A stretch of DNA of 64,000 nt from Bartonella grahamii subsp. shimonis (lineage in GTDB: Bacteria > Pseudomonadota > Alphaproteobacteria > Rhizobiales > Rhizobiaceae): the NCBI RefSeq assembly GCF_036327415.1, contig NZ_CP123961.1, forward strand, positions 1,302,001 to 1,366,000, in the 5' to 3' direction. This document shows, piece by piece, positions 17,719 to 61,965 of this stretch. Position 1 is the first letter of the stretch. The number at the start of each line of letters is the position of its first letter. The translations under genes and the position numbers were made by a program. Under the pieces are notes generated by a model, which saw only the letters and a list, made by a program, of their open reading frames with translations, was not told the origin of the DNA and ran no database searches.

Positions 17719-17730
17719 TAGGTTAATGCC

Positions 17731-18321: not shown

Positions 18322-18477
18322 ATTAAATTTTCTGTCATAAGGATAATAATTGGATTATCTAATAAATGTACAGATTATGCAACACCACTGTATAAGGTAA
18401 TTAGGGCATACAAACTATACAATATTAATGATTTTCTACTGTTGTTGGCAATAAAAACGATAAAGGTATAATTTTTA

Positions 18478-19830: not shown

Positions 19831-21456
19831 ATGAGCTTAAAAAGAAAAATATTGAAAAGTAGCAGCTCTCTTGTTGCTGCTCTTATTGCACTAGGGGTAG
19901 TTGTACAACAGGTTTCAGCAAAAACACCGGCTGATACTCTTGTGATGGCTTGGAATCTGGATGCAATCAGTACGTTTGATCCTGCGCAGCTCACTGATGT
20001 TTATGGAAGTGAAATTATTGGAAACGTCTGTGATAATTTGGTCAGTACTGCGACAGATGATCCTGCCAAAATGGTTCCAGCTTTAGCAACGCATTGGGAT
20101 GTTTCAGGTGATGATCACAGTACGGTGATTACTTTTCATTTGCGTGATGGTTTGAAGTTTAATAATGGCAAGCCAGCCAATGCCAATGATCTTGTTTGGG
20201 GTATGAAGCGGGTTGTCAAATTGAAGATGGGTAATGCGGCAATTTTTAATGAATATGGAATTACAGAACAAAATGTTGATGATGCTTTGCAAGCTCTTGA
20301 TGAAAAAACAGTGGTGATGAAATTTGATAAACCTTATCCAGCAGAGCTCATTCTTAATAATATTGTTGCGAGTCGTGCAACAGCTTTGCTTGATCGTAAG
20401 ACAATTATGAAACACGAAAAAAATGGTGATTTGGGAAATCAGTATTTGAAAACTCATGCTGCTTGTGTTGGTCCTTATCAGTTAAAACGTTGGAGCCCTG
20501 GAGAAGCGATTTTATTGCGTGCAAGCTCTCACTATTGGGGACAAGCACCTAAACTAAAGCAGATTGTAATTCGCCATGTTGCGGAGCCCGGAACACAGCG
20601 CTTGTTATTGCAAAAACATGATATTGATGTTGCTCGTAATTTGACACCTGAAGATCTTGCAGATCTGCAAAAAACAACAGATGTTAAAGTTGAAAAAGTG
20701 TTGGTGCCAACCATGATGTACTGGGGATTTAATACGACGAATCCCATTTTTGCCAATGAAAAAGTACGCTTGGCGATGCGTTATCTCATAGATTATGAAG
20801 GTCTTGGCAAGAAACTTCTCAAAGGGATTGGTATACCACGGGCAAGTTTTATTCCTCTTGGCAATTTTGGGGCTTTGGATGAAAAAGAAGGACAACCCTT
20901 TAAGCTTGATATTCAAAAAGCCAAGCAGCTTTTAGCAGAGGCCGGTTATCCGAACGGATTTGAGGCAAATTTTCTCGTGTCAAATACGCCTTATACTTTG
21001 TTACTTGCTCAGTCACTCCAAGATAGTGCTGCGCAGGCAGGGGTGCATCTTAAAATTGAACGTGTGGCAGGTACACAGTTGTTTTCAAAAGTGAATGCTC
21101 GGGCTTTTGATACGGCTTTTGTCGGCTGGAATAATGATTCTGCGGATCCTCATACAATGGCTTCACGTCTTGTTTATAATCCAGATAATCGGTTTGAGGC
21201 TAGAAACACTGCCTATCCTAGTTGGAAGCATGGGTATTTTGATGCCAAGATGAATCAAAAAGTTGAAGATGCATTGTTTCAAAAAGATCCGCAAAAACGG
21301 GCGCAAATATATGCTGATTTACAACGTGAACTTATGCAAAAAGGACCTTATGCGTTTATTTACCAGCAATATAGCGTTATAGCGATGACACCGGATGTCA
21401 AAAAGTGGGTTTGGAATAGTGCGCCACGTATTTTTTATAGTAAAATTGAAAAATAA
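19831..21456 (+). CDS. dppA: Peptide ABC transporter substrate-binding protein, DppA-like copy 4
   Basis: 541-residue family 5 solute-binding protein, nearly identical to copy 1 although xseA-tag and two other copies lie between them. It shares NNGKPANANDLVWGMKR, FLVSNTPYTLLLAQSLQDSAAQAGV and KTTDVKVEKVLVPTMMYW with copy 1. The signal peptide is SSSSLVAALIALGVVVQQVSA. It lies closest to the complete dpp operon, 375 bp upstream of the fifth, divergent family member. Its retention and closeness to copy 1 suggest recent duplication or gene conversion. Confidence 0.9.
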   Translation: MSLKRKILKSSSSLVAALIALGVVVQQVSAKTPADTLVMAWNLDAISTFDPAQLTDVYGSEIIGNVCDNLVSTATDDPAKMVPALATHWDVSGDDHSTVITFHLRDGLKFNNGKPANANDLVWGMKRVVKLKMGNAAIFNEYGITEQNVDDALQALDEKTVVMKFDKPYPAELILNNIVASRATALLDRKTIMKHEKNGDLGNQYLKTHAACVGPYQLKRWSPGEAILLRASSHYWGQAPKLKQIVIRHVAEPGTQRLLLQKHDIDVARNLTPEDLADLQKTTDVKVEKVLVPTMMYWGFNTTNPIFANEKVRLAMRYLIDYEGLGKKLLKGIGIPRASFIPLGNFGALDEKEGQPFKLDIQKAKQLLAEAGYPNGFEANFLVSNTPYTLLLAQSLQDSAAQAGVHLKIERVAGTQLFSKVNARAFDTAFVGWNNDSADPHTMASRLVYNPDNRFEARNTAYPSWKHGYFDAKMNQKVEDALFQKDPQKRAQIYADLQRELMQKGPYAFIYQQYSVIAMTPDVKKWVWNSAPRIFYSKIEK

Positions 21457-21830
21457 AGGTGTCTTTTCGTATTGTCAAAGGTCAAAATAGCTTGATCATA
21501 ATTGTATGATAAAAATATTCTTTCACATAAAAGTCCTTCAGTTTTAAAAGGATGAAACTGTGAGAGATGTTTGTTCTGTATATGATGGAGGCCGTTTATT
21601 AAGGAGGGATGAATATGGGAAGTTGTCTTGGAGAGTATCTTTGTTTATTTACAGATTCTCTGCATCCTGAATATAGATTGACGTATGAGAGAATTATTTT
21701 ACAGATGCTTAGTTTGGCTCAATGAAGTTGTGTTTGATACCATGCTGTTTAAAAGATGAAAGAGCAAAATCACAACTACTGTGTGTGAAAAAGCATAAGA
21801 ATATAATAGGAAAAAAATAGAGAAAAAAGA
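21457..21830. other. Intergenic region before the dpp operon
   Basis: Between dppA copy 4 and the dpp operon. Apart from the candidate small ORF at 21615 I see no gene. The promoter of the dpp operon must lie here or further upstream. Confidence 0.5.
21615..21725 (+). CDS. Candidate 36-residue small protein with strong ribosome site
   Basis: A short open frame beginning MGSCLGEYLCLFTDS and ending MLSLAQ. An unusually complete Shine-Dalgarno AAGGAGG (21601-21607) is spaced 7 nt from the ATG at 21615; another ATG at 21609 is too close to it. It lies between dppA copy 4 and the dpp operon. No homology recognised. It could be a leader peptide of the dpp operon or a decayed gene start. Only the ribosome site argues for it. 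Confidence 0.35.
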   Translation: MGSCLGEYLCLFTDSLHPEYRLTYERIILQMLSLAQ

Positions 21831-23432
21831 ATGTTAAAAAGAATTTGTATTTTATTCAGCACAATAGGTTTTTTAAATGGGGCTATAGTATCAGCATTTA
21901 GTGCTTCATCTAAAGATATATTGGTGATGGCATGGAATATTGATTCAATTATTAGTTTTGATCCAGCGCAAACTGTTGAGGTTGTGACGAGTGAGTTATT
22001 GACGAATATGTGTAGCGCGTTAGTGCAATATGATGAGCATGACCCTACAAAAATTCGTCCTGCTATGGCAAAATCTTGGGATGTTTTAGATAATGGCAAA
22101 CGAATAGTTTTTCATCTTCGTGATGATTTAAAGTTTGATGATGGAAGAACAGCAACGGCGCAAGATTTGGTATGGTCGATGCGGCGGATTATTAAATTAG
22201 GATTGAGTTATGCCCAATCTTTAATGGATTATGGGTTTACCAAAAACAATGTTAAAACAAATATTCAGGCTCTTGATGATAAGACTTTACAATTGAAATT
22301 AGATAAACCCTATCCTATTCAACTCATATTGACTGTTATTGGACAATCTTATGCTTCTGCTTTGCTTGATCGGAAAACAATTGAAGCGCAGAGTATTAAC
22401 GGTGATATGGGGAATAAATATTTAGCGACACATTCGGCTTGTGTTGGACCTTATAAATTGGTGAGCTGGTCTCCAGGAGATAAAGTTGTATTAAAGGCTA
22501 CACAGCATTATTGGGGCGATGTGCCTAAAATTAAGCATATTGTTGTGCAGCACGTAGCAGATTCATCAAGTCAAAGACTTCTTTTGGAAAAAGGTGATGT
22601 GGATATAGCGCGTGATCTTTCTTCAGAGGATATTTTAGATCTTGAAAAAAAGGGAGGCCCAGTCAAAATTAGTCGTGTTTTGCGCCCTCAGATTATTTAT
22701 CTATCATTAAATAATAAGAATGCAATTTTTGCAAACGAAAAGGTCAGATTGGCACTTCGTTATTTGGTTGATTATGAAGGTCTTGGAACAACTGTTTTGA
22801 AGGGGATTGCTATTCCGCGGGCAACTTATATGTCCTTGGGTGTTCCGGGTGCTTTGGATGAAAAAGAAGGCCAGCCTTTTAAGTTGGATTTGAAAAAAGC
22901 AAAACAGTTGATTACTGAGGCTGGTTATCCGAACGGTTTTAAAGCTAATCTTTTAGTTGGAAGCCTTAGTTATATGTCGTCTGTTGCACAGTCTATTCAA
23001 GCCAATGCACGTAAAATTGGTATTGAACTGACAATTGAAAAAATGGCACAAAATCAATTGTTGAGCCGTGTACGTGGTGGAAATTATGATACTGCTATTA
23101 TGGGATGGGGGAGCGCTGATCCTGATGGACATCCTGCTTCATTAAATCACGTGTTTAATCCTGATCCAACATTTACAAAAAAGCACAATATGTATTTGGC
23201 TTGGCGCGCTGGATATTATGATGAAAATATTAATAACATGGTGATGGGTGCTTTGTTTGAGCAAGACCCCAATAAGCGTATCATGCAATATCGTACTTTA
23301 CAGCATTATGTACTAGAGCATGGTCCTATGGTTTATTTGTTTCAGACATATTATACCGTTGGTATGGGACCTGATGTCAAAAAATGGATTTGGAACAGTT
23401 ATAGACTTTATTACAATGAAGCAGAAAAATAA
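21831..23432 (+). CDS. dppA: Peptide ABC transporter substrate-binding protein, operon-linked DppA
   Basis: 533-residue family 5 binding protein that heads the dppABCDF operon. The signal peptide is LFSTIGFLNGAIVSAFS. It keeps the family landmarks (FHLRDDLKFDDGRTATAQDLVWSMRR, LDKPYPIQLIL, SACVGPYKLVSWSPGDKV, KWIWNSYRLYYNEAEK) but is clearly diverged from the four orphan copies. It is probably the ancestral, permease-matched member. The ribosome site is weak (AGAGAAAAAAG). It binds the substrate in the periplasm and docks on DppB/DppC. The ligand (peptide or heme) is not determinable here. Confidence 0.92.
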   Translation: MLKRICILFSTIGFLNGAIVSAFSASSKDILVMAWNIDSIISFDPAQTVEVVTSELLTNMCSALVQYDEHDPTKIRPAMAKSWDVLDNGKRIVFHLRDDLKFDDGRTATAQDLVWSMRRIIKLGLSYAQSLMDYGFTKNNVKTNIQALDDKTLQLKLDKPYPIQLILTVIGQSYASALLDRKTIEAQSINGDMGNKYLATHSACVGPYKLVSWSPGDKVVLKATQHYWGDVPKIKHIVVQHVADSSSQRLLLEKGDVDIARDLSSEDILDLEKKGGPVKISRVLRPQIIYLSLNNKNAIFANEKVRLALRYLVDYEGLGTTVLKGIAIPRATYMSLGVPGALDEKEGQPFKLDLKKAKQLITEAGYPNGFKANLLVGSLSYMSSVAQSIQANARKIGIELTIEKMAQNQLLSRVRGGNYDTAIMGWGSADPDGHPASLNHVFNPDPTFTKKHNMYLAWRAGYYDENINNMVMGALFEQDPNKRIMQYRTLQHYVLEHGPMVYLFQTYYTVGMGPDVKKWIWNSYRLYYNEAEK

Positions 23433-27777: not shown

Positions 27778-30700
27778 TTAAAACTGATAGCGTATGCCGC
27801 CTGAAAAGCTTGCACCACTTATACCCGTTTTCTGAAGCTTTTGTTGATAGCTTACATCACCATGAAGGGAGAAATTGTGAGACAGTTGCGCATTGATGCC
27901 AACGCCGCCTTCAATTGCAGGTCCCATAGGTTCAAGGTCAAAGTCTCTGCCAATATGAATGGTGCCATCATCACCAAAGGTTTTGATCAAGTTTACTTTT
28001 CCATAGAAAGACATAGAACGGCTGTTTTCAGTGGAAATGGTTTTGGTCAAACGCCCACCAACACGGATTAACCATTGAGAAGGATTTTTCATATCAACAG
28101 TAAAGTTATCAGCATCTTCAATGGTGTTAAACATCAAATGTTGATAGGCAATTTGTGCTTGTGGCTCAAATGTTAAACCTTCCATTCCGGTTGCAAATTC
28201 TTTGCCAACAGTGGTGGAGACACTCAACATTTTGGCATCATTCAACTTTGCGGTCTTTCCTCTGATGGCATTGGTGATATGCCCCTTTAGGATACCATAG
28301 GATAAGAGTGTATCAACGTAGAACCCACTGCTATGCTGTATGCTACCGTAGGCTGTAATGGCCCATTTATCCAGTGTGCTCTTGCCAGCATCTGCGATAT
28401 TTTTCGGGGTGAAAGACAGTTGTCCATAGGTGCCTACAAGACCGAAATGTGTCGTGGTATTTTGCCCTTCAATTGCTGCCAATGTAACACCAGCTTGTAG
28501 AGCCGCATAACGGATATCAGCGCCGTAACCGTATTTGAGAGGACCACGCTTGGAAGATAAGGTTCCTGTGTTTCCGTAAGTGTATAGGAAGAAACCAGTT
28601 TGTTTTTCCTCTTCTTTTCCTAAGACAGATGTTCTCATAGTGGCTAAAAGTGCATTTTGTTTAGCTATATCAGTTAATCCAGTATAGAAGAGAGCATTTG
28701 GCATGACCAAATAGCTTGCTGTTTGTGGTACAGGGGCAATGGCAGGGATATTTGTTTCTGGATCAGGAGTTGAACCAGAATTCGAGCCAAGAAGTTCGGG
28801 TTGCAAACGGAAATCCCAGAAGTTTTCGTTCTTTTCATCAAACAGGTTTTGCGCAATATCAGCTTTGCCTTGGCTTGAGTCTGGTCCATAGGCACGGAGT
28901 GTATACATATCCGGTAAGCCGCCTCTTGTGGTATAGCCATTTACAAGTTTGAAAGAGCTTTCTTCTGCTTTTCCAGAAACTTGAATGAGTGAAAGACCAC
29001 GGACATTGGCAGCTGCAGAGGTATTTGCTTCGATATTGTTCCCTTCTAAGCGCCCCGTAACATAAACTGATGTTGTTCCAGAGACATCCCCATTGATCAA
29101 AAGTCTATCGGTTTTTTGGTCATTTATTGCAGCACCATCACTCCATTGTGCGTTGAAGTAAATCTTCGCATCACCCGTTGCATTGTAGACTGATTTTGTG
29201 TCTGGTTTACCAGAACCTATATGCAATGTTTGGTAGTGCTGTTCTGTTGGTTTATCAAAAACAATGGAGCTGTTATTAAGACTAAGCACAGAAACATCAG
29301 AACGAGATCTTTTAGCAATATCAAGGAGATTGCTATTATCATCTTTTTCGTTTTTGCTGATTTTCAACGTCCATGTTGTGTCGTTTTTCAGATCAAAGTG
29401 TACATTTCTGTCTTTAGCAATATTCGCTCTGCCCTCTAGAATAGACTGATCAGCATTTAATGTAAAAGTGCCGTTGGAGATCGCCTTAACATCTTTACCA
29501 TCCCACAAATCTTTATCTTTCCATGACGTTTTGTCCCAAAAAATACCATCTCCTAACAACACGTCAGCATGGATTTCTGATTTTTTAAGATTGACTGTGC
29601 CAATTGATGGAGCAGCAGCATCTTCGATGCTCTTTTCAGCAAAAGCTCCAACGAGAATTCCAGTACCATTTTCAGCATGAAGCTCTGCACTGGTTAGATT
29701 GATTTCATTGCCATGATATTTTTGTGAATTATGCCAGCTATTTGGATCCTTATCAGAGAAAGTTGCGAATTGTAAACCGGCAACTTCTGCTGCTGCAGAG
29801 ACATCCGTTAGATCAATATGGCCGCCATTTATTACAACCATTGCAACTTTTTTTGCTTCTATTTCATTTTTCTTCCCATTCTGAAGAGCATCGGATTGGG
29901 TATCTAGACTTTTAGAATTAGCATCAATAGCGCCATTAACCATCTTAATTGTGCTACCCTCAACAGCAAAAAGACCAATACCAACATTTTGAATGGTTGT
30001 TTTGCCATTTAATTCAACTATACTATCAGCCTCCCAAGTGTTTACACCAATGGTTTCTTTTTCGGATTCACCACCGATTATTGTTAAATCTCCGCTAATG
30101 ATTTTACTCCCACCATCTGCATAAAGACCTTCATCAAAATTTTGAATGGTTGTTTTGCCCGTTAACGTAATTTCACTACCAGAGTCCTCTGTCCATACAC
30201 CAGAGCGGATTTTGTCGGGGTCTTGATCACTTGTTTCACCACCGACTACGGTTAAATTTTCACTGGTAATTTTACCACCACCAACTGCTCCAAGACCGTT
30301 CCAAGTATTGTTAATCGTTGTATTGCCATGCAATTCAATTCTGCTATCAGGACCAATTGCAAATGCACCGGTTCCTTTGCCATCTGTTGTTAGATCAATA
30401 TTCGTGGCGTCAATCTGTCCACCTTTTTCTGCAAATAATGCAGTTTGTGTATTCCCTATTGTTGTTACTTTTCCTCCTGCCATTGTGATCTTAGATCCTG
30501 AACCCTCAGCACGGAGTGCATTACCATTAGATGATGCGACTGTAACATTGTTGTTTAAAGTAATGATGCTACCTTCTTTAGCATATACTCCATCATTTTT
30601 CCCATCGAATGATCCTCCAGAGACTGTTATTGTGGAGTGATCATTCGCAAATATACCCGTATTTGCATTCGTGACGGTTACATTGTTTAAATTCACATTG

Positions 30701-31788
30701 CTTTTTTCGGCATTTATTCCTTTATCCATCAAGGGATTATTTTTACCGCTCGATATCTTTACATTTTCCAGCGTGTTTTTGTTTTCATCACTTCCGCTAG
30801 CTTTGAAAAGAGCACCTATTTGAGAAGCAGCAATAGAACCACCGGTCATCCTGGCTATAGCTCCATTTTGTACATCAAGGCCGTTTGTAACTTTTTCAAT
30901 GGTTGTTTTGCCTTTTAATGTAATGACGCTGTTAGCGCCATCGGCTTTTGCGCCAGTTCCTTTGCCATCTGTTGTTGTTAAAGCAACATCCGTGACATCG
31001 ATCTGTCCACCTTTTTCTGCAAATAATGCATTTTGTTTTCCACTGACAGTTCCTCCCGTCTTTGTGATGTTGGCTCCTGAACCTTCTGCATGAAGTCCAT
31101 CGCTATCAGATGATGCGACTGTAACATTGTTGTTTAAAGTAATGATGCTACCTTCTTTAGCATATACTCCATCATTTTTCCCATCGAATGATCCTCCAGA
31201 GACTGTTATTGTGGAGTGATCATTCGCAAATATACCCGTATTTGCATTCGTGACGGTTACATTGTTTAAATTCACATTGCTTTTTTCGGCATTTATTCCT
31301 AAGGATAGTGGATTATTATCGTTATCACTCGATATTACCACATCTTCCAGCTTGTTTTTTTTACTTTTACTGTCAGAGAAGGAAGCACCAATGCCAGATA
31401 AGGAGGCACCAATTCCAGAAGCTGTAATCGTTCCCTTAGTCATTTTAAGTGTAGCACCATCCTTCGCCTCAAGGCCTAAGAAAATGCCAGAACCAATGCC
31501 TTTAATGGTTGTGCCATCCAGTAACTCAATTGCACTGTTAGCACCTTCTGCTGTTACAGCATAGACGTTGTTTATGCTTTGGTTTATATCTTTATTCGTA
31601 ACAATGGTTAAATGTTTTCCAATGATTTTTCCGCCATCTTTTGCATGAATAGTTTCATAAGTTTTATCGGATACTGATACGGTTTTTCCCTCAGAAACTT
31701 CGAGGGTTTCAGCATGTGCACTGGACTGGATGTTGAACAGGATAACAGTGGCTGCAGCCGTGCATGATAAAAGGAATGTTTTATACAC
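27778..31788 (-). CDS. Autotransporter adhesin-type outer-membrane protein
   Basis: Type V secretion protein of about 1336 residues. It has a signal peptide (FLLSCTAAATVILFNIQSSAHA), then a long passenger of pectin-lyase/pertactin-like beta-helix repeats built from GxxITL-, NTGIFA- and GGKI-type rungs (residues ~30-940). A linker rich in Pro (about 1030) follows, then a C-terminal beta-barrel (~1060-1336) ending GGIRYQF with the terminal Phe typical of barrel assembly. The frame opens at a TTG (31815), but GTG 31788 is preceded by AAGGAG at good spacing and gives a cleaner signal peptide. The passenger contains a 192-bp exact internal duplication. It probably mediates host contact, as such proteins do in Bartonella; the passenger is not recognised as a specific named factor. 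Confidence 0.9.
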   Translation of the reverse strand: MYKTFLLSCTAAATVILFNIQSSAHAETLEVSEGKTVSVSDKTYETIHAKDGGKIIGKHLTIVTNKDINQSINNVYAVTAEGANSAIELLDGTTIKGIGSGIFLGLEAKDGATLKMTKGTITASGIGASLSGIGASFSDSKSKKNKLEDVVISSDNDNNPLSLGINAEKSNVNLNNVTVTNANTGIFANDHSTITVSGGSFDGKNDGVYAKEGSIITLNNNVTVASSDSDGLHAEGSGANITKTGGTVSGKQNALFAEKGGQIDVTDVALTTTDGKGTGAKADGANSVITLKGKTTIEKVTNGLDVQNGAIARMTGGSIAASQIGALFKASGSDENKNTLENVKISSGKNNPLMDKGINAEKSNVNLNNVTVTNANTGIFANDHSTITVSGGSFDGKNDGVYAKEGSIITLNNNVTVASSNGNALRAEGSGSKITMAGGKVTTIGNTQTALFAEKGGQIDATNIDLTTDGKGTGAFAIGPDSRIELHGNTTINNTWNGLGAVGGGKITSENLTVVGGETSDQDPDKIRSGVWTEDSGSEITLTGKTTIQNFDEGLYADGGSKIISGDLTIIGGESEKETIGVNTWEADSIVELNGKTTIQNVGIGLFAVEGSTIKMVNGAIDANSKSLDTQSDALQNGKKNEIEAKKVAMVVINGGHIDLTDVSAAAEVAGLQFATFSDKDPNSWHNSQKYHGNEINLTSAELHAENGTGILVGAFAEKSIEDAAAPSIGTVNLKKSEIHADVLLGDGIFWDKTSWKDKDLWDGKDVKAISNGTFTLNADQSILEGRANIAKDRNVHFDLKNDTTWTLKISKNEKDDNSNLLDIAKRSRSDVSVLSLNNSSIVFDKPTEQHYQTLHIGSGKPDTKSVYNATGDAKIYFNAQWSDGAAINDQKTDRLLINGDVSGTTSVYVTGRLEGNNIEANTSAAANVRGLSLIQVSGKAEESSFKLVNGYTTRGGLPDMYTLRAYGPDSSQGKADIAQNLFDEKNENFWDFRLQPELLGSNSGSTPDPETNIPAIAPVPQTASYLVMPNALFYTGLTDIAKQNALLATMRTSVLGKEEEKQTGFFLYTYGNTGTLSSKRGPLKYGYGADIRYAALQAGVTLAAIEGQNTTTHFGLVGTYGQLSFTPKNIADAGKSTLDKWAITAYGSIQHSSGFYVDTLLSYGILKGHITNAIRGKTAKLNDAKMLSVSTTVGKEFATGMEGLTFEPQAQIAYQHLMFNTIEDADNFTVDMKNPSQWLIRVGGRLTKTISTENSRSMSFYGKVNLIKTFGDDGTIHIGRDFDLEPMGPAIEGGVGINAQLSHNFSLHGDVSYQQKLQKTGISGASFSGGIRYQF
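30530..30721. repeat. 192-bp exact direct repeat in the autotransporter, copy A
   Basis: Identical, as far as I can follow by eye, to 31109-31300 (offset 579 bp = 193 codons, so in frame). It codes the rung block from INAEKSNVNLNN to NNVTVASS. It reflects a recent in-frame duplication or gene conversion within the passenger. Confidence 0.85.
31109..31300. repeat. 192-bp exact direct repeat in the autotransporter, copy B
   Basis: Partner of the repeat at 30530. The flanking passenger sequences differ more, so identity is confined to this block; recombination between the copies would delete or add 193 codons without shifting the frame. Confidence 0.85.
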
Positions 31789-32156
31789 TAGTATTCTCCT
31801 TATGAGAGCCCCCAAATATTCATTTCCCCGAAAACTTCATAAAAAGAAGTGAAAATGGATAGTTGTTATTAATTTTGATAATTGTCTTTGTTTGGTAAGA
31901 TATTTTTGGTTTTTTGTCAAAATAAAAAATAACTGATATTAAAATTTTATGAATTTATATTTAACACACAATGTGCTTATAATTATTTATATTATATAAA
32001 TTTAAATATTATAATACTCACATAATTTATATTATTTTTATAAAGTAATGATAATGTTTTGTGTGATATTTATTCAGTTTTATATTTATCAAAGTAAGTA
32101 ATAACAGTAATACTCAACACTGTTTCTAGCACTTTTTATTATTTCTACCTTTCAGC
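31789..32156. promoter_or_regulatory. Upstream region of the autotransporter gene, AT-rich
   Basis: About 370 bp of very AT-rich DNA before the minus-strand autotransporter; it must contain its promoter. I could not assign single -35/-10 boxes among many AT-rich candidates. The composition changes sharply near 32157, where phage sequence begins mid-gene; this is a recombination junction. Confidence 0.4.
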
Positions 32157-39162: not shown

Positions 39163-39444
39163 ATGGCAATTGTGAGTTTCAAACATAAGGGGTTAAAATT
39201 ATTTTATACAACAGGTTCCACAAAAGCTATTCGACCAGATCACGTGAAAAAGTTACGCGTTATCTTGACAGCTTTAACAAGTGCTACGACGCCTGAAATG
39301 TTGAAGGCACCTGCCTTTAAAATGCATCCTCTTAAAGGTGAACTTACGGGATATTATTCCATATGGGTGAATGGAAATTGGCGTGTTACTTTTCGTTTTA
39401 TCGGAACGGACGTGGAGCTTGTTGATTATCAAGATTACCATTGA
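39163..39444 (+). CDS. higB: HigB-family toxin of a type II toxin-antitoxin pair
   Basis: 93-residue RelE/HigB-like mRNA interferase that cleaves mRNA on the ribosome. Pattern: MAIVSFKHKGLKLFYTTGSTKAIRPDHVKKLRVILTALTSA, then FKMHPLKGELTGYYSIWVNGNWRVTFRF and the end VELVDYQDYH, all typical of HigB. It precedes its antitoxin by 18 nt, the reversed toxin-first order that characterises higBA. A truncated copy of this pair lies at 59.7 kb, at the far end of the AfsA cluster. Confidence 0.93.
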   Translation: MAIVSFKHKGLKLFYTTGSTKAIRPDHVKKLRVILTALTSATTPEMLKAPAFKMHPLKGELTGYYSIWVNGNWRVTFRFIGTDVELVDYQDYH

Positions 39445-39462
39445 TGAAAGGAACGAAAACAA

Positions 39463-39762
39463 ATGATGCATAACCCCGCACATCCGGGCGAAGTTCTAAA
39501 AGTAGCTTTCTTAGAAGAAATGGGGATAACAATACAAAAGTTAGCTGATCATCTCCATATGACAAGAGCTTCTCTATCAAGAGTGATTAACGGACATGCC
39601 TCTATGAGTACCGAACTTGCAGTGAAATTAGAACTAGCTGGTTTTAGTAAAGCAAAATTTTGGCTGGATATGCAAACGAATTATAATTTATGGCAAACAA
39701 TGCAACAGACACAACCACCTATTTCTCCTCTGGTTTCTGATGCACCTCAAACGCCGCATTAA
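39463..39762 (+). CDS. higA: HigA-family antitoxin
   Basis: 99-residue antitoxin with an XRE-type helix-turn-helix (about residues 20-60, ITIQKLADHLHMTRASLSRVINGHASMSTELAVKLE). It begins MHNPAHPGEVL, the HigA hallmark. It binds HigB and represses the operon. The ribosome site AAAGGAACG lies just downstream of the higB stop. The C-terminal 25 residues are Pro/Gln-rich and not part of the HTH. Confidence 0.93.
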   Translation: MMHNPAHPGEVLKVAFLEEMGITIQKLADHLHMTRASLSRVINGHASMSTELAVKLELAGFSKAKFWLDMQTNYNLWQTMQQTQPPISPLVSDAPQTPH

Positions 39763-52954: not shown

Positions 52955-53470
52955 ATGTACCAAGTTCAACAAATTGCTAATTTCTTTCTTGAAAAGGGAC
53001 GCGAGGATAATATCCAAATTTATCCTATGAAGCTTATAAAACTGGTTTATCTTGCATATGGATGGATGTTAGCAGCTACAGGTAAGCGTCTCTTTCCTGA
53101 TCGTATAGAAGCATGGCAGCATGGTCCTGTTATTCCGGCTCTCTATCATAAGTTTAAAGATTGGGGAAGGCGTTTTATCGATTGTTATTCGCGTATGGTG
53201 GATTTAGAGACAGGAGAGATTTTTATCCCTAAAATTCATAAGAATTCAACTGATGAATATACAGTTAAGTTATTAGAGATTGTTTGGAATGCTTATACAA
53301 ATTTTTCACCTTGGTGCTTGCGCGATGAATTTCATGAGGATGGGGCACCGTGGAAGAAAGTATATGATGTTGGGCGATTTTGTGTGAAGTTAAAAGATCA
53401 TGATATCAGAAAATACTTCACGCAAAAAATTAATAGATATTCACAAAAAGCAAGGAAAATAGCTAAGTGA
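52955..53470 (+). CDS. Panacea/SocA-type (DUF4065) protein
   Basis: 171 residues with the Panacea signature: VQQIANFFLEKGREDNIQIYPMKLIKLVYLAYGWMLAATGKRLFPDRIEAWQHGPVIPALYHKFKDWG. Panacea domains are the antitoxin part of diverse toxin-antitoxin systems; Caulobacter SocA is a member that feeds its toxin SocB to ClpXP. No recognisable toxin is adjacent; the broken gene downstream (53467) overlaps its stop by 4 nt and is the only candidate partner. Translational coupling (ATGA-type overlap with GTG) is seen. Confidence 0.88.
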   Translation: MYQVQQIANFFLEKGREDNIQIYPMKLIKLVYLAYGWMLAATGKRLFPDRIEAWQHGPVIPALYHKFKDWGRRFIDCYSRMVDLETGEIFIPKIHKNSTDEYTVKLLEIVWNAYTNFSPWCLRDEFHEDGAPWKKVYDVGRFCVKLKDHDIRKYFTQKINRYSQKARKIAK

Positions 53471-54723: not shown

Positions 54724-54822
54724 TTGTTTCAATTTGTGTTTAATTACAAATACGGCACTGGTTGTACTGTATCTAGACGAGGGGCAGTACAGTTCAAAAT
54801 CCCCGCAAATGCGGGGTTTTTT
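54724..54822 (+). ncRNA. Candidate small RNA ending in a perfect intrinsic terminator
   Basis: Between mazF and the terminase small-subunit gene. A first hairpin TGTACTG...CAGTACA (54763-54769 with 54785-54791) is followed by CCCCGC-AAAT-GCGGGG (54801-54816) and six T, a textbook rho-independent terminator. The stretch lacks a conserved reading frame (the frame from 54724 is an artefact of the next gene). It may simply be the mazEF 3' end; as a free RNA it would be ~100 nt. No promoter is resolved. Confidence 0.45.
54801..54822 (+). terminator. Intrinsic terminator before the terminase genes
   Basis: Perfect 6-bp GC stem CCCCGC/GCGGGG with a four-base AAAT loop and a run of six T. It separates the mazEF transcript from the late (terminase) genes. 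Confidence 0.85.
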
Positions 54823-54843
54823 ATTATCTGGAGGGCGTATTTT

Positions 54844-55176
54844 ATGACATCAGAAAATACACAGCAGGCTCCACAACCAGTTAAAAAGCGTATACCCCCA
54901 AAGGCAGGTCAAGGGCGTGTCAAAGGCGTTCCCAATAAAATGACGCGCATTTTAAAAGAAGCAGTGGTTAAGGCTGCTGAGAATGCTGGGAATAAAATTG
55001 GCAATGATGGTTTGACCTCCTATTTGGAAAAGCAGGCTATGGATTGCCCCGCTGCTTATTTGGCATTGCTTGGTAAGGTGTTGCCTTTGCAGGTGACAGG
55101 GGAAGATGGGGGAGCTATTAAAGTGATAACGCGTGTAGAAATCGCGCCTTTGGTCAATGACAACCACACAGATTAA
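54844..55176 (+). CDS. Phage terminase small-subunit-like protein
   Basis: 110 residues. Basic N-terminus (KKRIPPKAGQGRVKGVPNKMTRILKEAVVKAAENAGNKIG), then DGLTSYLEKQAMDCPAAYLALLGKVLPLQVTGEDGGAIKVITRVEIAPL, the pattern of the small DNA-binding proteins placed directly before the terminase large subunit in many phages. The start at 54844 follows GGAGG. It overlaps the terL start by 20 nt. It recognises packaging DNA in intact phages; here the motor subunit is destroyed, so it has no partner. Confidence 0.75.
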   Translation: MTSENTQQAPQPVKKRIPPKAGQGRVKGVPNKMTRILKEAVVKAAENAGNKIGNDGLTSYLEKQAMDCPAAYLALLGKVLPLQVTGEDGGAIKVITRVEIAPLVNDNHTD

Positions 55177-55216
55177 GATTGTTCCAAAACTTATACCGAT
55201 TTTTAAAGCCATATAA
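55157..55216 (+). pseudogene. Terminase large-subunit 5' stub
   Basis: Only MTTTQIKIVPKLIPIFKA remains, the usual N-terminus of phage terminase large subunits of this group (TxIKxPPKLIPxFxG...), followed at once by a stop and unrelated AT-rich DNA. The break falls about 55210. The ATPase and nuclease domains and all head, portal and tail genes that should follow are missing; the AfsA-type cluster begins 94 bp later. A left junction of the inserted cluster is inferred. Confidence 0.75.
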
Positions 55217-55309: not shown

Positions 55310-56113
55310 ATGAAAAATACATCTAATAAGAAAATTTTTATAGTTGGCAATAAATTTCATGAATTTAGTATACATGAAAACGTTAAGACTTTTGGGGAAA
55401 TTTTAGAGATGATACGTACAAATTCCTTTGCCAATTTACCTAGTAATAGTCAACTTGTTAGCGGTCAAGGGTTAACAGAAGTTCAAGCTCAAGCTCTTTA
55501 TGACCAAGGACTATATCCACTCGCAGCCCACGGGATTGATATTTCTCCTCTACTACAGCGTCCACTTCGCGTTAGCCGCCTGCAAAGTCATAAGCACTAC
55601 ATCAGAAATGCGATTATCTCTCACCCGAAACGTTTAGATGAGCATAATTTTGAATCTCACTTAATATTGGATGAACGGTCAGAACTAATGAATGATCATC
55701 AAACTGGACAACATATACAAGGTATGGTGTTGATTGAAGCAGCTCGTCAAATGTTTTTAGCAGTTACTGAGGAATATTTTATCGGAGATAACTGGACGGA
55801 GCCGTATTACTTCGTGTTAAATAGCCTGGCTGCCAATTTTACAGGGTTTGTATTCCCTCTTGACGTTGTTTTTAACTATCGAATTAACTCTAGCGATATA
55901 TCCAGATTATCTCGCCTTCACTTCGATATAACTATATCAGTTAACCAAGGCGACACGAGCGCCGCTACTCTTTCCTTTCAGTTTACTGCTTATCATACAG
56001 AAAAACTAAAGAAGAATGAACACAAACAAGCGATTAAATTTCTTAACAAGCAAACAGGTAGGGACTCTGTCTCGCGGAAAGCTGAGAACCTTGAAAATGT
56101 TTATCTTGCGTAG
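55310..56113 (+). CDS. AfsA-type hotdog protein, putative gamma-butyrolactone precursor synthase
   Basis: 267 residues. The middle region carries the A-factor synthase (AfsA) hotdog pattern: FESHLILDERSELMNDHQTGQHIQGMVLIEAARQMFLAVTEEYF (about residues 115-160; the DHxxGxHxxGMxLIEAARQ motif is the family hallmark). It is preceded by ISPLLQRPLRVSRLQSHKHYIRNAIISHPKRLDEHN. A second, weaker hotdog-like half follows (LAANFTGFVFPLDVVFNYRINSSD...RLHFDITISVNQGDTSAATLSFQFTAYH), as in AfsA. In Streptomyces AfsA joins a beta-ketoacyl-ACP to dihydroxyacetone phosphate to begin A-factor signal synthesis. It is first of five plus-strand genes that include a phosphatase and a reductase, the later steps of that route. 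No signal peptide; cytoplasmic. The family fit is strong; the product is inferred. Confidence 0.85.
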   Translation: MKNTSNKKIFIVGNKFHEFSIHENVKTFGEILEMIRTNSFANLPSNSQLVSGQGLTEVQAQALYDQGLYPLAAHGIDISPLLQRPLRVSRLQSHKHYIRNAIISHPKRLDEHNFESHLILDERSELMNDHQTGQHIQGMVLIEAARQMFLAVTEEYFIGDNWTEPYYFVLNSLAANFTGFVFPLDVVFNYRINSSDISRLSRLHFDITISVNQGDTSAATLSFQFTAYHTEKLKKNEHKQAIKFLNKQTGRDSVSRKAENLENVYLA

Positions 56114-56124
56114 AGGCATTATCT

Positions 56125-56967
56125 ATGAAAACAATAATGTACGAACTAAGTTTGACTACACAAGGACCGACTTATCCCCCGAGCGAAGTAATGGATGAAA
56201 AGGGAAATTTTATTGTTATTGGACAAATCAATCGCATGAATTCCCATGGAGAACTTACCTCAGAGTGGGGAAGAGCTTTGGTATCAACCTCTACTGTAAC
56301 TCCTGAATTCGGCAAGAATGCTCCCTACGATATCATAAAAGAACTTTCAGATCCTCTTTCTAGTAGTGATGCCTCTCTTGTATTACATACTCTGCCCTTA
56401 CCATTACCATGCAATAATTATCCAGTAATATTTGCACCAGCGCAATGCCCCAATGCGAAAAATATTTATCTGCCAAGCTATGGCTTCCATGAAGTACCAA
56501 TACCAGACGCTCGAAACCAAGATGGTAGAAAGATTACTGCGCCGATAACCCTTGAACAATGGTGTAAAGCGAAAGGATCCATGGAAGTTTCCGTCCCTAA
56601 CGACCAACGAACAGGACATTTTCGTTTTGAATTTTTGGGGTTAATTCCTAACAGTCTTTACACAATTATGGCACTACGGCAACATGATCTGAATCCCCAT
56701 GCACCTACACGACCCGGCCCACTTGGTCTTCCCAATATACTACTGGCAGATGCTGATGGGCATGCCTTTTATCAAGCAATATTACCCAATCCGTTTCCAT
56801 CTGTGAACGATCCCTCTGCTAATCGAATAGTAAATATCGTCTTGCTTTGGATGAGTTATCAAATGAATCGAGGCGGTGCGATCGGATGGTATGGCTTAGG
56901 AGGGGATGTCCACGCGCAGCTAAAGCTCAAAAAAACAGGTTTCTGGGAATTCACAACAAAGGATTAA
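56125..56967 (+). CDS. Unrecognised protein of the AfsA-type cluster
   Basis: 280 residues, starting 11 nt after the AfsA-type gene. No family recognised and no signal peptide or membrane segment. Visible features: an N-terminal ELSLTTQGPTYPPSEVMDEKGNFIVIGQINRMNSHGELTSEWGRALVS, a Pro-rich mid region (HTLPLPLPCNNYPVIFAPAQCPN), and a conserved-looking segment HFRFEFLGLIPNSLYTIMALRQHDLNPHAPTRPGPLGLPNILLADADGHAFYQAILPNPFP that is beta-rich. A final aromatic/Gly end reads RGGAIGWYGLGGDVHAQLKLKKTGFWEF. Position makes an enzyme or binding role in the same small-molecule pathway likely. What it does cannot be told from sequence. Confidence 0.75.
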   Translation: MKTIMYELSLTTQGPTYPPSEVMDEKGNFIVIGQINRMNSHGELTSEWGRALVSTSTVTPEFGKNAPYDIIKELSDPLSSSDASLVLHTLPLPLPCNNYPVIFAPAQCPNAKNIYLPSYGFHEVPIPDARNQDGRKITAPITLEQWCKAKGSMEVSVPNDQRTGHFRFEFLGLIPNSLYTIMALRQHDLNPHAPTRPGPLGLPNILLADADGHAFYQAILPNPFPSVNDPSANRIVNIVLLWMSYQMNRGGAIGWYGLGGDVHAQLKLKKTGFWEFTTKD

Positions 56968-57051
56968 TATTACGAATAAATCATATCCATGCTTATAAAG
57001 AACAAACAACATTATAAAGTATTTAATTTTTTTTGAAGGGAGAAATTAATA

Positions 57052-57810
57052 ATGGGCCTTGCGTATGCATTCTTCGATGTAGATGGCACCCTTATTCGGA
57101 GCAAAAGTATGCTCGCTTTCCACGATTTCTGGTATAAATCTTGGCTAGGTTTTTCAACCAACGCTCACCAAGAGGAATATGCAGATACTACTGCTATTTT
57201 ACGTGCACACCATGATAACCAGAGTCCGCGCAGCGTAATAAACCGTCGCTTTTATGAATTTTTTGCCGGACGTGCTGTAGCAGAAGTAACAAGATGTGCA
57301 GAAACTTGGGCAAAGCGCGCGTTGATTCATCCTACTTTCTTAATCCAAGAAGTAGTAACAAAACTAAAATCCCATCATAGCCAAAAAATTGAGCCGGTCT
57401 TAGTATCCGGCTCTTTTATAGAAATTCTAGCCCCCATTGCAGAACATCTAGGTGTACCTTACATCTTGGCCACAAAACTATTGCATGATGGGCAAAAATA
57501 TAATGGCCGTTTCGTCCCTCCGCAAACGATCGGCGTTGGAAAAGCGCTTGCGATTCAGGATTTTATTGAAAAACATGGTGGTGACCTTAAGAACTGCTGG
57601 GCCTACGGTGATGATATTTCCGATGAGCATATGCTGAAGCTTGTAGGTCATCCTGTCGCTGTTATTGGCGATCCTTTGCTTGAGGCGTATGCTCACAAGC
57701 ATGGTTGGCGCTGTTTAAATCTACCTAAAGAATCACAAACTCTAGCATTCTCCTCTAAAAAGGTATTTCCTTTTAATGAGACGTCTTTACATGAAATATC
57801 AGTTCTTTAG
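57052..57810 (+). CDS. HAD-superfamily (subfamily IB) phosphatase
   Basis: 252 residues with all HAD motifs: motif I FFDVDGTL (Asp9, Asp11), motif II VLVSGSF (Ser near 119), a Lys region near KALAIQDF, and motif IV GDDISDEHML near residue 186. The cap between motif I and II is helical, as in subfamily IB (SerB/CicA-like) enzymes. In A-factor type pathways a phosphatase removes the phosphate that comes from dihydroxyacetone phosphate; this gene is a good candidate for that step. Ribosome site AGGGAGAA. Start fixed by homology: the DVDGT motif follows at once. Confidence 0.88.
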   Translation: MGLAYAFFDVDGTLIRSKSMLAFHDFWYKSWLGFSTNAHQEEYADTTAILRAHHDNQSPRSVINRRFYEFFAGRAVAEVTRCAETWAKRALIHPTFLIQEVVTKLKSHHSQKIEPVLVSGSFIEILAPIAEHLGVPYILATKLLHDGQKYNGRFVPPQTIGVGKALAIQDFIEKHGGDLKNCWAYGDDISDEHMLKLVGHPVAVIGDPLLEAYAHKHGWRCLNLPKESQTLAFSSKKVFPFNETSLHEISVL

Positions 57811-57962
57811 TTATTCAACCTAATCACAATAAACTTTAAGGCTATCTTATTATTTAAACAATTTAATAATACTCAATACATTAAACATAATACAGTAATA
57901 CATAATGCATGGCTAAAAATAAACTAGCTGAATATTAATGATTACAACTTCAGGTATAGAAA
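57811..57962. other. 152-bp gap within the AfsA-type cluster
   Basis: AT-rich, no gene. It could hold a second promoter for the SDR-EamA pair; no clear boxes. Confidence 0.4.
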
Positions 57963-58719
57963 ATGCTAAACGAAATGATAAAAAACACGACCGGAATTTA
58001 CTCACAACAACAGAAACGTATTTTAGTCACAGGAGGCGCTCGCGGCATCGGTAAAGCAATTGTTCTAAACTTATTGAAAAATGGTCATAAGGTAGCAAGT
58101 GCAGACATCATTGACATAGAACTACCAACCTCCATCGATACGGCAAGCTTATGTAAATTGATTGTTGATATCCGCGATAAAGAAGCCATTGACTCTTCTG
58201 TCCATAAAGGTTATCTCAGAATTTGGTGGTCTTGATGTCTTAGTTAATGTAGCAGGCATTTGTTATAGTGGCGATCCAGAAACAATTGATGCTCAAGAAT
58301 GTGCTGAAACATTTGATGTGAATATTAAAGGAATGTTCTATATAACAGCTACTACTTTACCCTATCTAAAAAAGGAAATTCGCGCCGATATTATAAATAT
58401 TTCATCCATATGGGGTGTAGAATACAATCCTTCTTTAATTTCATATTCTTCTTCTAAATTTGCTGTAGAGGGCTATACTGGTGGGTTGCGCTTATGGGGA
58501 ATGCCACAAAATATTCGTGTTTGTTCAATCCAAGTTGATAAAGTTAATACGGATTTTCGTCGCAATTTTAAAGGATTCCCAGAGATACCTCCAGAGAATC
58601 TTACCAAAATGCTTCACCCAGATGACATTGCTTCCGCGGTCAATTTTATTCTTTCCTCATCTAATACCGCACAAATTTCTTCTATACGTCTCGATGCTCC
58701 ACTTTGGTATCAAGTATAA
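57963..58719 (+). pseudogene. Short-chain dehydrogenase/reductase, frameshifted
   Basis: Classical SDR of ~250 residues split by one frameshift. The first frame (57963-58235) has the NAD(P)-binding TGGARGIGKA (about residues 23-32) and the start of the second strand. From about 58206 the reading continues one base out with KVISEFGGLDVLVNVAGICYSG (the NAG motif as NVAG), the catalytic Ser (NISSIWG) and YxxxK (YSSSK), and runs to 58719. Removing one A of the AAA at 58206-58208 restores a full enzyme. A reductase of this type would reduce the keto or butenolide intermediate in gamma-butyrolactone synthesis. Either recent decay, programmed slippage or a sequence error; otherwise all motifs are intact. 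Confidence 0.85.
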
Positions 58720-58730
58720 GGATCTATCCA

Positions 58731-59663
58731 ATGAAAATCACGCCCAGAATAGCTCTTGTCTTAACCCTCGTAGGAACCTTTTTTTGGGGTTCCAATTTCC
58801 AAGCCACTAAGATAGCTTTAACGACTGTTTCTCCATGGACAGCTTCTTTTGAGCGGTTTCTCATTGCCGTAATCGCCATATTTTTAATTATGATTTTCAA
58901 AGAAGGCTTGCGGTGGCATGTTTTATCGCAAAATTTTATTTCTTATATTTTCCTAGGGATTATCGGTGTGGCAGGGTTTAATGGCGCTTTATTTGTTGGC
59001 TTGCAAACGTCAAATCCCATAACAGCCTCCCTCATCATGGCGACAACCCCTATTAGTGCTAATATTATTGAAGCTATCATGAATAAATCTTTCCCAACCT
59101 GTGAGAGGGTTATAGGGATGCTCATTAGCATGTTCGGGGTCTATTTAGTCATAACAAATGGGAGATTTTTGTCTAACCATGTTTCCTTTGCCAAAGGAGA
59201 TATTATGATTCTTTTAGGTTCCATTGGTTGGGCGTTCTATACCGTGGGCACGCGGTCATTTGTCAAGAACGCAACCCCGCTTGAAACAACAAGCTGGACG
59301 ATGCTCTCTGGCACCGTCGCCCTTGGCGTCCTAACCTTTTTATTCGAATCCCCTCTTCAAGAAACGATGTCTATGTCCGGCGCTAGTTTATTCGCACTCC
59401 TTTGGATGGGGGTTGCAGGATCAGTTTTAGCCTACCTATTTTGGAATATTGGAATAGCGATCCGAGGTCCGGGTAAGACGGCGATATTTTTCAATTTTGT
59501 ACCTATTTCAGCCTTATTGGTGCAAATCCTGTTCGGCTTCATCCCTCAAATCATGCAAATCATAGGCGTTTTTGTTACGATTTTTGGAGTTCTAATCGGA
59601 CAAGGCTATATATTCAGCTTACTAGGATCTAGAAAAGCCGTTCCCAATGCGCATAAAGAGTAA
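58731..59663 (+). CDS. EamA/DMT-family exporter
   Basis: 310 residues, ten predicted membrane helices in two EamA halves. The first half starts IALVLTLVGTFFWGSNFQATKIALTTVSPWTASFERFLIA, the second GDIMILLGSIGWAFYTVGTRSFVK. The C-terminal end is short and polar. The frame begins 9 codons earlier, but ATG 58731 with AAGGA fits the family N-terminus. 11 nt after the SDR stop, so co-transcribed. DMT transporters export amino acids, metabolites and small signals; here export of the cluster's product is the simple inference. Confidence 0.9.
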   Translation: MKITPRIALVLTLVGTFFWGSNFQATKIALTTVSPWTASFERFLIAVIAIFLIMIFKEGLRWHVLSQNFISYIFLGIIGVAGFNGALFVGLQTSNPITASLIMATTPISANIIEAIMNKSFPTCERVIGMLISMFGVYLVITNGRFLSNHVSFAKGDIMILLGSIGWAFYTVGTRSFVKNATPLETTSWTMLSGTVALGVLTFLFESPLQETMSMSGASLFALLWMGVAGSVLAYLFWNIGIAIRGPGKTAIFFNFVPISALLVQILFGFIPQIMQIIGVFVTIFGVLIGQGYIFSLLGSRKAVPNAHKE

Positions 59664-59677: not shown

Positions 59678-59898
59678 TGAATGGAAATTGGCGTGTTATT
59701 TTTCGCTTTATCGGAACAGATGTAGAGCTTGTTGATTATCAAGATTACCATTGATGAAAGGAATGAAAACAAATGACGCATAACCCCACCCATTCTAGTG
59801 AAGTTCTAAAAGTAGCTTTTTTAGAAGAGATGGGGATAACAATACAAAAATTAGCGTATCGTCTTCATATAACAAAGTACGTATTTATTGTCAAATAA
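59678..59898 (+). pseudogene. Truncated higBA copy at the right edge of the AfsA-type cluster
   Basis: Matches the intact pair at about 39.37-39.57 kb over ~200 bp: the end of higB (NGNWRV.FRFIGTDVELVDYQDYH), the spacer ATGAAAGGAA.GAAAACAAATGA, and the first ~33 codons of higA (THNPTHSSEVLKVAFLEEMGITIQKLAYRLHIT). Both ends are cut and the HTH is missing. Copies differ at many third positions, so it is an older paralogue, not an assembly artefact. It starts about 15 bp after the EamA stop and marks the right boundary of the inserted segment. Confidence 0.85.
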
Positions 59899-60585
59899 TA
59901 TTTTATCTTTTTTTGATATTTTTTGTATTTTTTAAATACGTTGTGTATTGATAATATCTTATGATTATGAATTGCTTTTTTATATTTATATGCGTTTAAA
60001 GCTATATTATGGGCTTTATGAAACGATTGCGTTATGTTTTGAATCTATACATCTATAATATTTAAAAAGGCTCTCATAATGCGTATTTTTATCTTTATAA
60101 CCTATCAGTTTTTTTACTAAATGAATTTAAATTTTTTTGTGAATTTTGTTTATAATACATTTAAAATTTAATAGCCTCTTATAGGTGCTCTCTTTATAAT
60201 CAATGCGTTCATTTACAGTTTAGTTATTTGAAGCTGCTGTTTTTACGCATTTTCTATAGCTGTTATATGCTTTATAGCCATGGCATCATTTTTCATTTTC
60301 ATAAGAGAAACGATAAGTAGGATAATTGTAATTTATAGACTGTTATGAAAACATCTAAAGAGAGATTGATAATTATAGAGATCAGTAAAATTCCTTTTAA
60401 TAGGCTTTTGTCAGTGATGTCAGTTTTGTCAGTTCTTTTTAGACCCTCTATTATTTTTTTTGAATGGTAAAAAAATAAAATCAATATATTTCAATATGTT
60501 AATATCTTTAAAACATAACTTATATCAAGAGTACAATCTTTAAAGATAGCCAATGATGTGAATTGATTAAAACTTGTCAGTTATG

Positions 60586-60606
60586 TGTCAGTAAATTGAA
60601 CTGACA
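60586..60606. repeat. TGTCAGT/ACTGACA inverted repeat
   Basis: Perfect 7-bp inverted repeat with a 7-base spacer (60586-60592 and 60600-60606), embedded in several direct TGTCAG repeats. Possible protein-binding site or part of an old origin. Confidence 0.6.
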
Positions 60607-61006
60607 AAAGTGATCATTTTAATGAGTCATTAAAACGTGTCTTATGAAAAGCATATGAAATTAAAAACTGATTACGTTATCAAAATCCTTTTTATGAATT
60701 TTATCAGTTCTTTTGAATGATAACCTTATGATTTAGAGAATGATTACAACGTGCTTTATGAAAATCATGTGATCTTTTAAAGCCTTTCAAAAGACAGTTT
60801 ATAAACATAAGAAATGCTATCAAGATCATTATGATTATAAGTTTTGAAGGGGTTTTGAGTTTTGAAGGTTGCTGCTTTTAGATAAAAAAACAGTAAAAAA
60901 TAAAAACGTTATATTTCAATGTGTTAATATTTTTAAAGTTTTCAAAAAACAATCTATAGTGATATAGTAACCTATAAATCAACTTTTAATATATGTTTTG
61001 AAGGTA

Positions 61007-61033
61007 TTTTGAAGGTGTTAGCAACCTTCAAAA
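61007..61033. repeat. TTTTGAAGGT inverted repeat
   Basis: Perfect 10-bp inverted repeat with a 7-base loop. Half-sites recur as direct repeats at 60842, 60860 and 60996, so it is unlikely to be just a terminator. Confidence 0.6.
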
Positions 61034-61338
61034 CCTATAGCAAAATGAATATACATAACTCTCTTTAAACAAAGCTTTTGAAAAGGATAAAGCTATCATT
61101 TGAGATTACGGTATAATCTCTTAAAGGCAATCCAAAAGGAGCGTATTCTATTTAAGATGGGATTTCTTATAAGTCTTAAAGCAATCCAAATGACAGTGTT
61201 TAAAAGTGCAAACGATTTTTTTTAGAATAACGCATAATAAATTATTCCTTTTAAGATTGTATGTAATCAACTTACAAGAGAGGTATAGATTATGATTATA
61301 AGACCCTATACCCTTTATGAGTTATAAGGTCTTATAAG

Positions 61339-61965
61339 CTATTCAGTTTCTCTAATTTCTAATTTTGGTAGGCTCTTAACAATTTTCATTGTCTCTAAAC
61401 TTACAGTAATAACCCTTTGAAACAACTCTAATGGATAAGCAGGGTTTCCAACGGTCTCAACAGCATAGCGATTAGCATCATTAACAATGCCACTCTTTTT
61501 ATCTGTTTTTACGCATTGACGACCCATAACCCATTCAAGAGCGGGTCTACCATTTACGATATACTCATAAGCTTCCTTAGGTATATCTGTTATTGTGATG
61601 TTGCTGTTGTAAATAACAGTGGATTTATCGTTTTCCTTACTATTCTTAATTTTTGCGAACTTCATCTCTGTAACGTAATAAAATTTTTCTGGATTAGAGA
61701 TATCAGTTAATTTTGGATTGCCTTTTTTAAAGGTCACTGGATAAGGCTCTACAGTTTCATAATTCACATGCAAATGACCCAGTTCACGCCCTGCTGTAAC
61801 AAATTTCCAAAAATCATCAGCAGTTTTTACACAAGGGATACGAGGCAATTCTTTAGAGAGGTTATCAGCATAGCGAGTGCGATAATCTTCCGAATGAAGT
61901 AAACCGTAAACGTAATAAAAGATATCATCTCTTGTTATGGTTTTAGTAAGTAAGCAGAGAGGCAC
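61339..61965 (-). pseudogene. C-terminal remnant of a type ISP restriction-modification enzyme
   Basis: 208 residues that match the C-terminal specificity part of large single-chain type ISP restriction-modification proteins. Matching segments: DDIFYYVYGLLHSEDYRTRYADNLSKELPRIPCVKTADDFWKFVTAGRELGHLHVNYE, then IPKEAYEYIVNGRPALEWVMGRQCVKTDKKSGIVNDANR and NPAYPLELFQRVITVSLETMKIVKSLPKL. Full proteins have over 1000 residues with nuclease, helicase and methylase domains before this; none is present here, so it is a truncated fragment. An ATG happens to open the frame (MPLCLLTK), but no ribosome site is seen. On the minus strand, toward the iteron-like region. Confidence 0.8.

Follow-up and report, generated by a model that had tools for sequence, protein, structure and literature searches.

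The window analysed here is a stretch of 64,000 nucleotides (1,302,001-1,366,000) of the single-contig 2.19 Mb genome of Bartonella grahamii subsp. shimonis, a member of a genus of host-adapted bacteria. Its subject is a block of genes around an AfsA-family protein, which the initial annotation described as a five-gene gamma-butyrolactone signalling pathway inside a prophage. The block comprises the following genes, the second of which encodes a protein that we call P2:

55310-56113, plus strand: AfsA-family protein, 267 aa, one hotdog domain (PF03756), predicted phosphorylated-butenolide synthase, homologue of SPOA0342
56125-56967, plus strand: P2, 280 aa, part of it with a Cu,Zn superoxide dismutase-like fold, homologue of Ruegeria SPOA0341
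57052-57810, plus strand: HAD-IB phosphatase, 252 aa (TIGR01490), predicted to dephosphorylate the butenolide, homologue of SPOA0339
57963-58719, plus strand: SDR reductase, frameshifted, in pieces 57963-58235 and 58162-58719 (PF00106 on both pieces)
58731-59663, plus strand: EamA/DMT exporter (PF00892, E 2.5e-36)

Open reading frames were verified at 55310-56113, 56125-56967, 57052-57810 and 58704-59663, the last opening at a TTG; its in-frame ATG at 58731 was picked by eye. The assignment of the first protein to the AfsA family stands (E 2.2e-15, 57.3 bits with a cut-off of 24), as do the family calls for the HAD-IB phosphatase (117.5 bits, cut-off 98.3), the SDR and EamA, and the motifs quoted in the initial annotation are present in the translations. 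P2, left there as the one unrecognised protein, matches nothing in Pfam or NCBIfam at E up to 1. The genes for AfsA, P2, HAD and EamA are open, whereas the SDR gene is split into two overlapping pieces in different frames; its relatives in two other Bartonella, at loci L004 (strain ML69XJBT) and L005 (strain B1099), form one open frame of 251 aa.

Two hotdog halves had been expected in the window AfsA, but both Pfam and a structure model give one. A single PF03756 stretch covers residues 94-226, and the model (predicted local distance difference test score 92.4) places a single hotdog at 85-231 after a small N-terminal domain. The hotdog fold is common to FabZ, which is also the best sequence match in the PDB (E 0.013); a FabZ-type dehydratase or a thioesterase was rejected, no such Pfam or NCBIfam family matching at E up to 1, and curated family search leaves the protein in the AfsA family, as originally proposed. 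Against NF041195, the equivalog model of the ScbA/BarX signal synthases, it scores 21 bits, where the cut-off is 200. When PF03756 was surveyed in eight P2-bearing genomes (six Streptomyces, a Nocardia and a Glycomyces), it matched 21 open reading frames (33 match rows, grouped by us). All eight frames linked to P2 have a single match, and 12 of the 13 others have two, the thirteenth having one weak match. P2 and F3, a second family of the conserved core described below, are found in none of 11 neighbourhoods of other Streptomyces AfsA-family genes (10 two-match, 1 weak). The two remaining two-match frames, in two Streptomyces genomes, lie 9-10 kb from the P2-linked AfsA with ScbR-family genes adjoining, an arrangement suggesting that signalling belongs to a separate system and that the P2-linked enzyme makes a product. 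The Streptomyces AfsA/ScbA synthases share the PF03756 family with the window protein, and the motif DHxxDHxxGMxLxEAxRQ of their C-terminal hotdog (five of the six sequences displayed) resembles its DHQTGQHIQGMVLIEAARQ; they differ in that they carry PF03756 twice and have ScbR genes in their own genomes, and in that the neighbourhoods examined contain neither P2 nor F3. These data set the single-hotdog, P2-linked AfsA proteins apart from the two-domain A-factor-type synthases, and the split implies that signalling may be overstated where Pseudomonadota genes are labelled 'butyrolactone' automatically.

P2 marks the system. A database search returned 510 P2 homologues; among the 120 matches listed, 119 are 55-71% identical to the query, with Actinomycetota and Pseudomonadota both represented, and the remaining one is the 99% cluster to which the query belongs. 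We examined the best 80 of 100 relatives from a scan of named genomes, with a neighbourhood of up to 10 kb on each side, 51 of these loci being within Actinomycetota and 29 outside, including one in Myxococcus. The grouping of these genes recurs consistently: AfsA is present in 78 of the 80 loci, on the same strand as P2 in all 78 (median gap 317 bases, largest 4,425), HAD in 78, and F3, a protein of about 205 aa, in 69, counting a frameshifted copy at L004. All four members of this core, F3-AfsA-P2-HAD, occur together in 68/80. The first two F3 members tested have no Pfam match at E 0.01. A 77-aa tautomerase is matched in 48 loci, not always between P2 and HAD, and is therefore not universal. 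The other neighbours vary: MFS (39 loci), KASIII (35), CMD (32), AKR (26), SDR (24), LysR (20), EamA (16) and thiolase (7). SDR and EamA share a locus in 16 of the 80, two of them in Bartonella, and Paracoccus binzhouensis (L066) has F3-AfsA-P2/HAD-SDR-EamA in the same order as Bartonella. Although P2 has a Cu,Zn superoxide dismutase-like fold over part of its length, only two of its eight histidines are conserved over 49 sequences, namely His122 (0.96) and His263 (1.0); His88 follows at 0.73. Judged against the textbook number of ligands, P2 lacks the metal-binding histidine set of Cu,Zn superoxide dismutase, and that identity was rejected. Both P2 and F3 are well-conserved families that would repay enzymological study.

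Among plasmids, the best match is the megaplasmid of Ruegeria pomeroyi DSS-3, where the order is F3 (SPOA0343), AfsA (SPOA0342), P2 (SPOA0341), tautomerase (SPOA0340) and HAD (SPOA0339), with LysR, AKR, CMD and MFS genes adjoining; because the record carries newer tags, SPOA numbers were assigned by gene order and by the published naming of SPOA0342. The B1099 operon, whose AfsA is 99.6% identical in DNA to that of the window, has F3, AfsA, P2 and HAD in the same order. Protein identities to Ruegeria are 49.7% over 163 columns for F3, 38.8% over 201 columns for AfsA (E 3e-42), 52.2% over 276 columns for P2 (window P2 itself 52.2% by tblastn) and 40.9% for HAD (E 8e-45), and the CMD proteins are also homologous. 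The Bartonella operon differs in having SDR and EamA in place of AKR and MFS, and a tandem CMD. The window copy keeps homologues of AfsA, P2 and HAD, but not of F3 or of the tautomerase between P2 and HAD, where both the window and B1099 have a gap of 84 bases; it additionally lacks CMD, and its SDR is broken. The Ruegeria cluster is reported to be needed for diffusible killing and, in part, for immunity: according to the relevant passages of Sharpe et al. 2020 (PMC7426152), six non-killing transposon mutants carried insertions in SPOA0342 (three), SPOA0341 (two) and the regulator SPOA0344 (one). The SPOA0341 and SPOA0344 mutants were sensitive to the parent, their immunity being lowered, whereas afsA mutants were not sensitive, and growth of the afsA mutant tested exceeded that of the parent (PMC7426152). 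The same source reports all three of SPOA0341-0343 in 29 of 35 organisms.

AfsA occurs in 3 of 71 Bartonella genomes, the window genome included; the other two were equated with L004 and L005 by identical sequence over 12,000 and 18,105 bases. All seven genes of the B1099 operon, CMD-F3-AfsA-P2-HAD-SDR-EamA, are open. The CMD there is a PcaC-like protein in tandem form (126 bits, short of the model cut-off of 156), and PcaC-like proteins form a family that decarboxylates gamma-lactones. In ML69XJBT, CMD homology starts 229 bases late, near the contig end, and F3 is frameshifted. In the window genome, CMD and F3 have no match at E 0.001, and with the SDR broken as well the view of the block as a working five-gene pathway is not supported. 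Gene by gene, the operon is 98.9-99.8% identical among the three Bartonella, against 84.1, 84.3 and 90.5% for the main aligned pieces of their gltA regions; the operon therefore passed between Bartonella species recently. In AfsA and P2 trees, which agree on the nearest relatives, the Bartonella proteins group with metagenomic sequences (supports 99 and 100). Burkholderiales sequences come next to this group, with supports of 96 and 92 for the wider groups of the AfsA tree and of 89 (not starred) in the P2 tree; the inner group of the AfsA tree also takes in a Delftia protein. We found no description of the cluster in Bartonella in the literature covered, that of open-licence PMC papers.

The left flank of the block is a real prophage remnant, with phage-type genes between about 39.8 and 55.2 kb that include an integrase and RecE-like, Bet-like, primosomal and SSB genes. 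The features at its two edges are:

54724-55176, plus strand: prophage gene phrog_11043, directly upstream of the junction, with a paralogous copy elsewhere in the genome
55157-55208, plus strand: 5' stub of a prophage gene resembling that of a terminase large subunit and truncated by the operon; the name comes from reading the translation of the paralogue by eye
59678-59875, plus strand: 198-bp stretch downstream of EamA, by eye a higBA-type remnant, 89% identical to 39368-39565
61339-61965, minus strand: C-terminal piece of a Type ISP restriction-modification protein (PF18135, E 3.1e-58), in a flank shared with L004 and L005

Homology to B1099 starts at 55194, and homology to a second prophage of the same genome, which continues into a terminase large-subunit-like gene, runs to 55205-55208. 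The junction thus falls within 55194-55208, where 12 bases, TACCGATTTTTA (read by eye), are common to both parents, the prophage and the upstream sequence of the operon; the operon therefore sits in the terminase-like gene via a short shared sequence. The right flank is shared with the islands of the two other Bartonella, where F3 and not a phage gene borders AfsA. The placement inside a prophage accordingly survives on the left side only, the right being common to those islands. Carriage by a phage, also proposed, is not borne out: AfsA has no match in 50,697 phage records, AfsA and P2 have no relatives in viral contigs, and the junction consists of a break in a short stretch that both sides share. 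The 39368-39565 copy of the 198-bp direct repeat, near the prophage integrase, also matches just after EamA in L004 and L005. The Type ISP region (window 59864-61957) is repeated on both sides of the B1099 operon (L005 937-2895 and 14504-15724), and such flanking repeats could help to move it; the window retains only the C-terminal piece of that protein. The prophage remnant also holds a protein with a Panacea/SocA-like antitoxin domain (52955-53470).

Chemical precedent for the operon comes from two other systems. The AfsA-like PBS domain of the gladiostatin/gladiofungin pathway of Burkholderia gladioli, a Gram-negative, condenses dihydroxyacetone phosphate with 3-ketothioesters in vitro (PMC7756379), and its deletion abolishes gladiofungin (PMC7756420). 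The passages concerned report the products as cytotoxic or antifungal, not as signals (PMC7756379, PMC7756420). This domain differs from ours in being fused to a polyketide synthase, and the same passages mention neither P2 nor F3. The sphydrofuran island GI-9 of Streptomyces ambofaciens resembles the cluster in its annotation table, which lists a butenolide synthase, KASIII, AKR, CMD, phosphatase and MFS together with an antibiotic-biosynthesis-monooxygenase protein (PMC11195616). It is likened by annotation alone and its synthase is of AvrD type; nine other AvrD loci have no P2, F3 or CMD of this type. From the Burkholderia chemistry, the gladiofungin deletion and the neighbours in the sphydrofuran island we infer that the product of the full operon would be a small molecule of butenolide or furan type, partly decarboxylated and exported.

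We consider the block most likely, with a probability of roughly 60%, to be what remains of an antimicrobial-metabolite operon of the R. pomeroyi DSS-3 killing type, acquired horizontally and now truncated and decaying. Our best reading is thus of a remnant of an antimicrobial butenolide-derived pathway, neither A-factor signalling nor phage cargo. In the proposed sequence of events, the single-hotdog AfsA would join a beta-ketoacyl thioester from primary metabolism to dihydroxyacetone phosphate, giving a phosphorylated butenolide from which HAD would remove the phosphate. F3, P2, CMD and SDR would then convert the butenolide to the final small molecule, and EamA would export it. After its recent transfer among Bartonella species, illegitimate recombination in the window genome would have joined the operon to the prophage terminase-like gene, with CMD and F3 lost and the SDR frameshifted, so that this copy probably no longer makes the full product. 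The cluster family is known but, as far as we found, chemically uncharacterised, and the Bartonella gene set is a variant of it.

Several observations weigh against this interpretation. None of the three Bartonella has a broken AfsA, P2, HAD or EamA frame, and AfsA has fewer protein-changing than silent changes among them (dN 0-0.0016, dS 0.006-0.018), implying that some function may remain; in P2 dN (0.003-0.008) is not below dS (0-0.005), and in both genes the changes are too few for a selection test. A sequencing error could account for the frameshift in the window SDR. Four genes of the Ruegeria cluster, those for the tautomerase, AKR, MFS and LysR, are missing from the Bartonella operon, and we know of no product for any member of the family. 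P2 predicts AfsA, but the reverse does not always hold: P2 or F3 is nearby in neither of two other alphaproteobacterial AfsA loci (L128 and L129), found with the family alignment, which matched 3 of 385 genomes, the window genome included. Only 2 of the 19 plasmid records with an AfsA match also match P2 well. In the passages concerned, Sharpe et al. do not decide between a killing and a signalling role for the butyrolactone-like molecule, and in their afsA mutant 10 genes of the cluster were no longer transcribed, an effect equally in keeping with a signal (PMC7426152).

A first alternative is that the operon is selectively neutral debris of a recent transfer, functionless in any Bartonella. 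Damage in two of the three copies, the very few changes with no deficit of protein-changing ones in P2, and the presence in only 3/71 genomes are in keeping with it, but all seven frames of B1099 are open, silent changes exceed protein-changing ones in AfsA and the operon is near-identical across three species, and we regard it as possible though rather unlikely. True gamma-butyrolactone signalling, in which AfsA, HAD and the reductase would make a diffusible autoregulator acting via a receptor, is the pathway initially proposed. It draws on the PF03756 match, on the phosphatase and reductase adjoining AfsA and on the transcriptional effect in Ruegeria (PMC7426152). ScbR-family matches at E 0.001, however, occur in none of the three operon-bearing Bartonella genomes and in 3/3 Streptomyces genomes, although an unrelated receptor is possible. 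The low NF041195 score, the single PF03756 match of all eight P2-linked proteins, the separate two-domain AfsA with ScbR in two Streptomyces, the lack of LysR or any other regulator among the B1099 operon genes and the broken SDR also speak against signalling. The killing role of the homologous Ruegeria cluster argues the same way, even if its authors do not decide between killer and signal (PMC7426152), and we judge signalling quite unlikely.

Retention for immunity alone is likewise improbable. Here P2, EamA and perhaps HAD would protect against the product of neighbours with the full operon, leaving the biosynthesis genes free to decay. SPOA0341 mutants lose immunity where afsA mutants keep it, and the afsA mutant tested outgrew its parent (PMC7426152); in addition, all three Bartonella keep open frames for P2 and EamA, while two of them have a damaged or missing F3, CMD or SDR. 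The frames of AfsA and HAD are likewise open, however, the excess of silent changes lies in AfsA and not in P2, and we caution that SPOA0341 insertions may be polar on SPOA0340 and SPOA0339. A bolder extension, which we hold to be doubtful, would make the seven-gene operon a working small-molecule weapon spreading horizontally among Bartonella species, with the window and ML69XJBT strains as immune non-producers that keep P2 and EamA for protection while their biosynthesis genes decay; if it were true, P2 would be a self-protection protein with a superoxide dismutase-like fold. That the block is a lysogenic-conversion module carried and moved by the prophage, as the real prophage remnant on its left might suggest, is very improbable given the absence of matches in phage records and viral contigs, the F3 bordering AfsA in the two other Bartonella, the shared right flank and the junction that cuts the terminase-like gene at 12 shared bases.

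By this analysis, relatives of a cluster on which a marine bacterium depends for diffusible killing lie in host-adapted Bartonella and have moved recently between species of that genus. The killer-or-signal question raised by the passages of Sharpe et al. (PMC7426152) also becomes testable on purified enzymes.

Other observations concern the wider family and the rest of the window. The AfsA genes of L128 and L129, without P2 or F3, are a sign of further kinds of AfsA cluster. At L066 (2598-4319) and L077 (9347-10735) the P2 and HAD matches share one open frame, possibly a natural fusion. In Pantoea latae (L073, 9238-9980) AfsA is split into two open reading frames, and the cluster may thus be decaying in other bacteria too. 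Elsewhere in the window, 9182-23432 contains two extracellular solute-binding proteins of family 5 (541 and 543 aa) in a row with further open reading frames of similar length, and a 1345-aa open reading frame on the minus strand (27778-31815) carries an autotransporter beta-domain.

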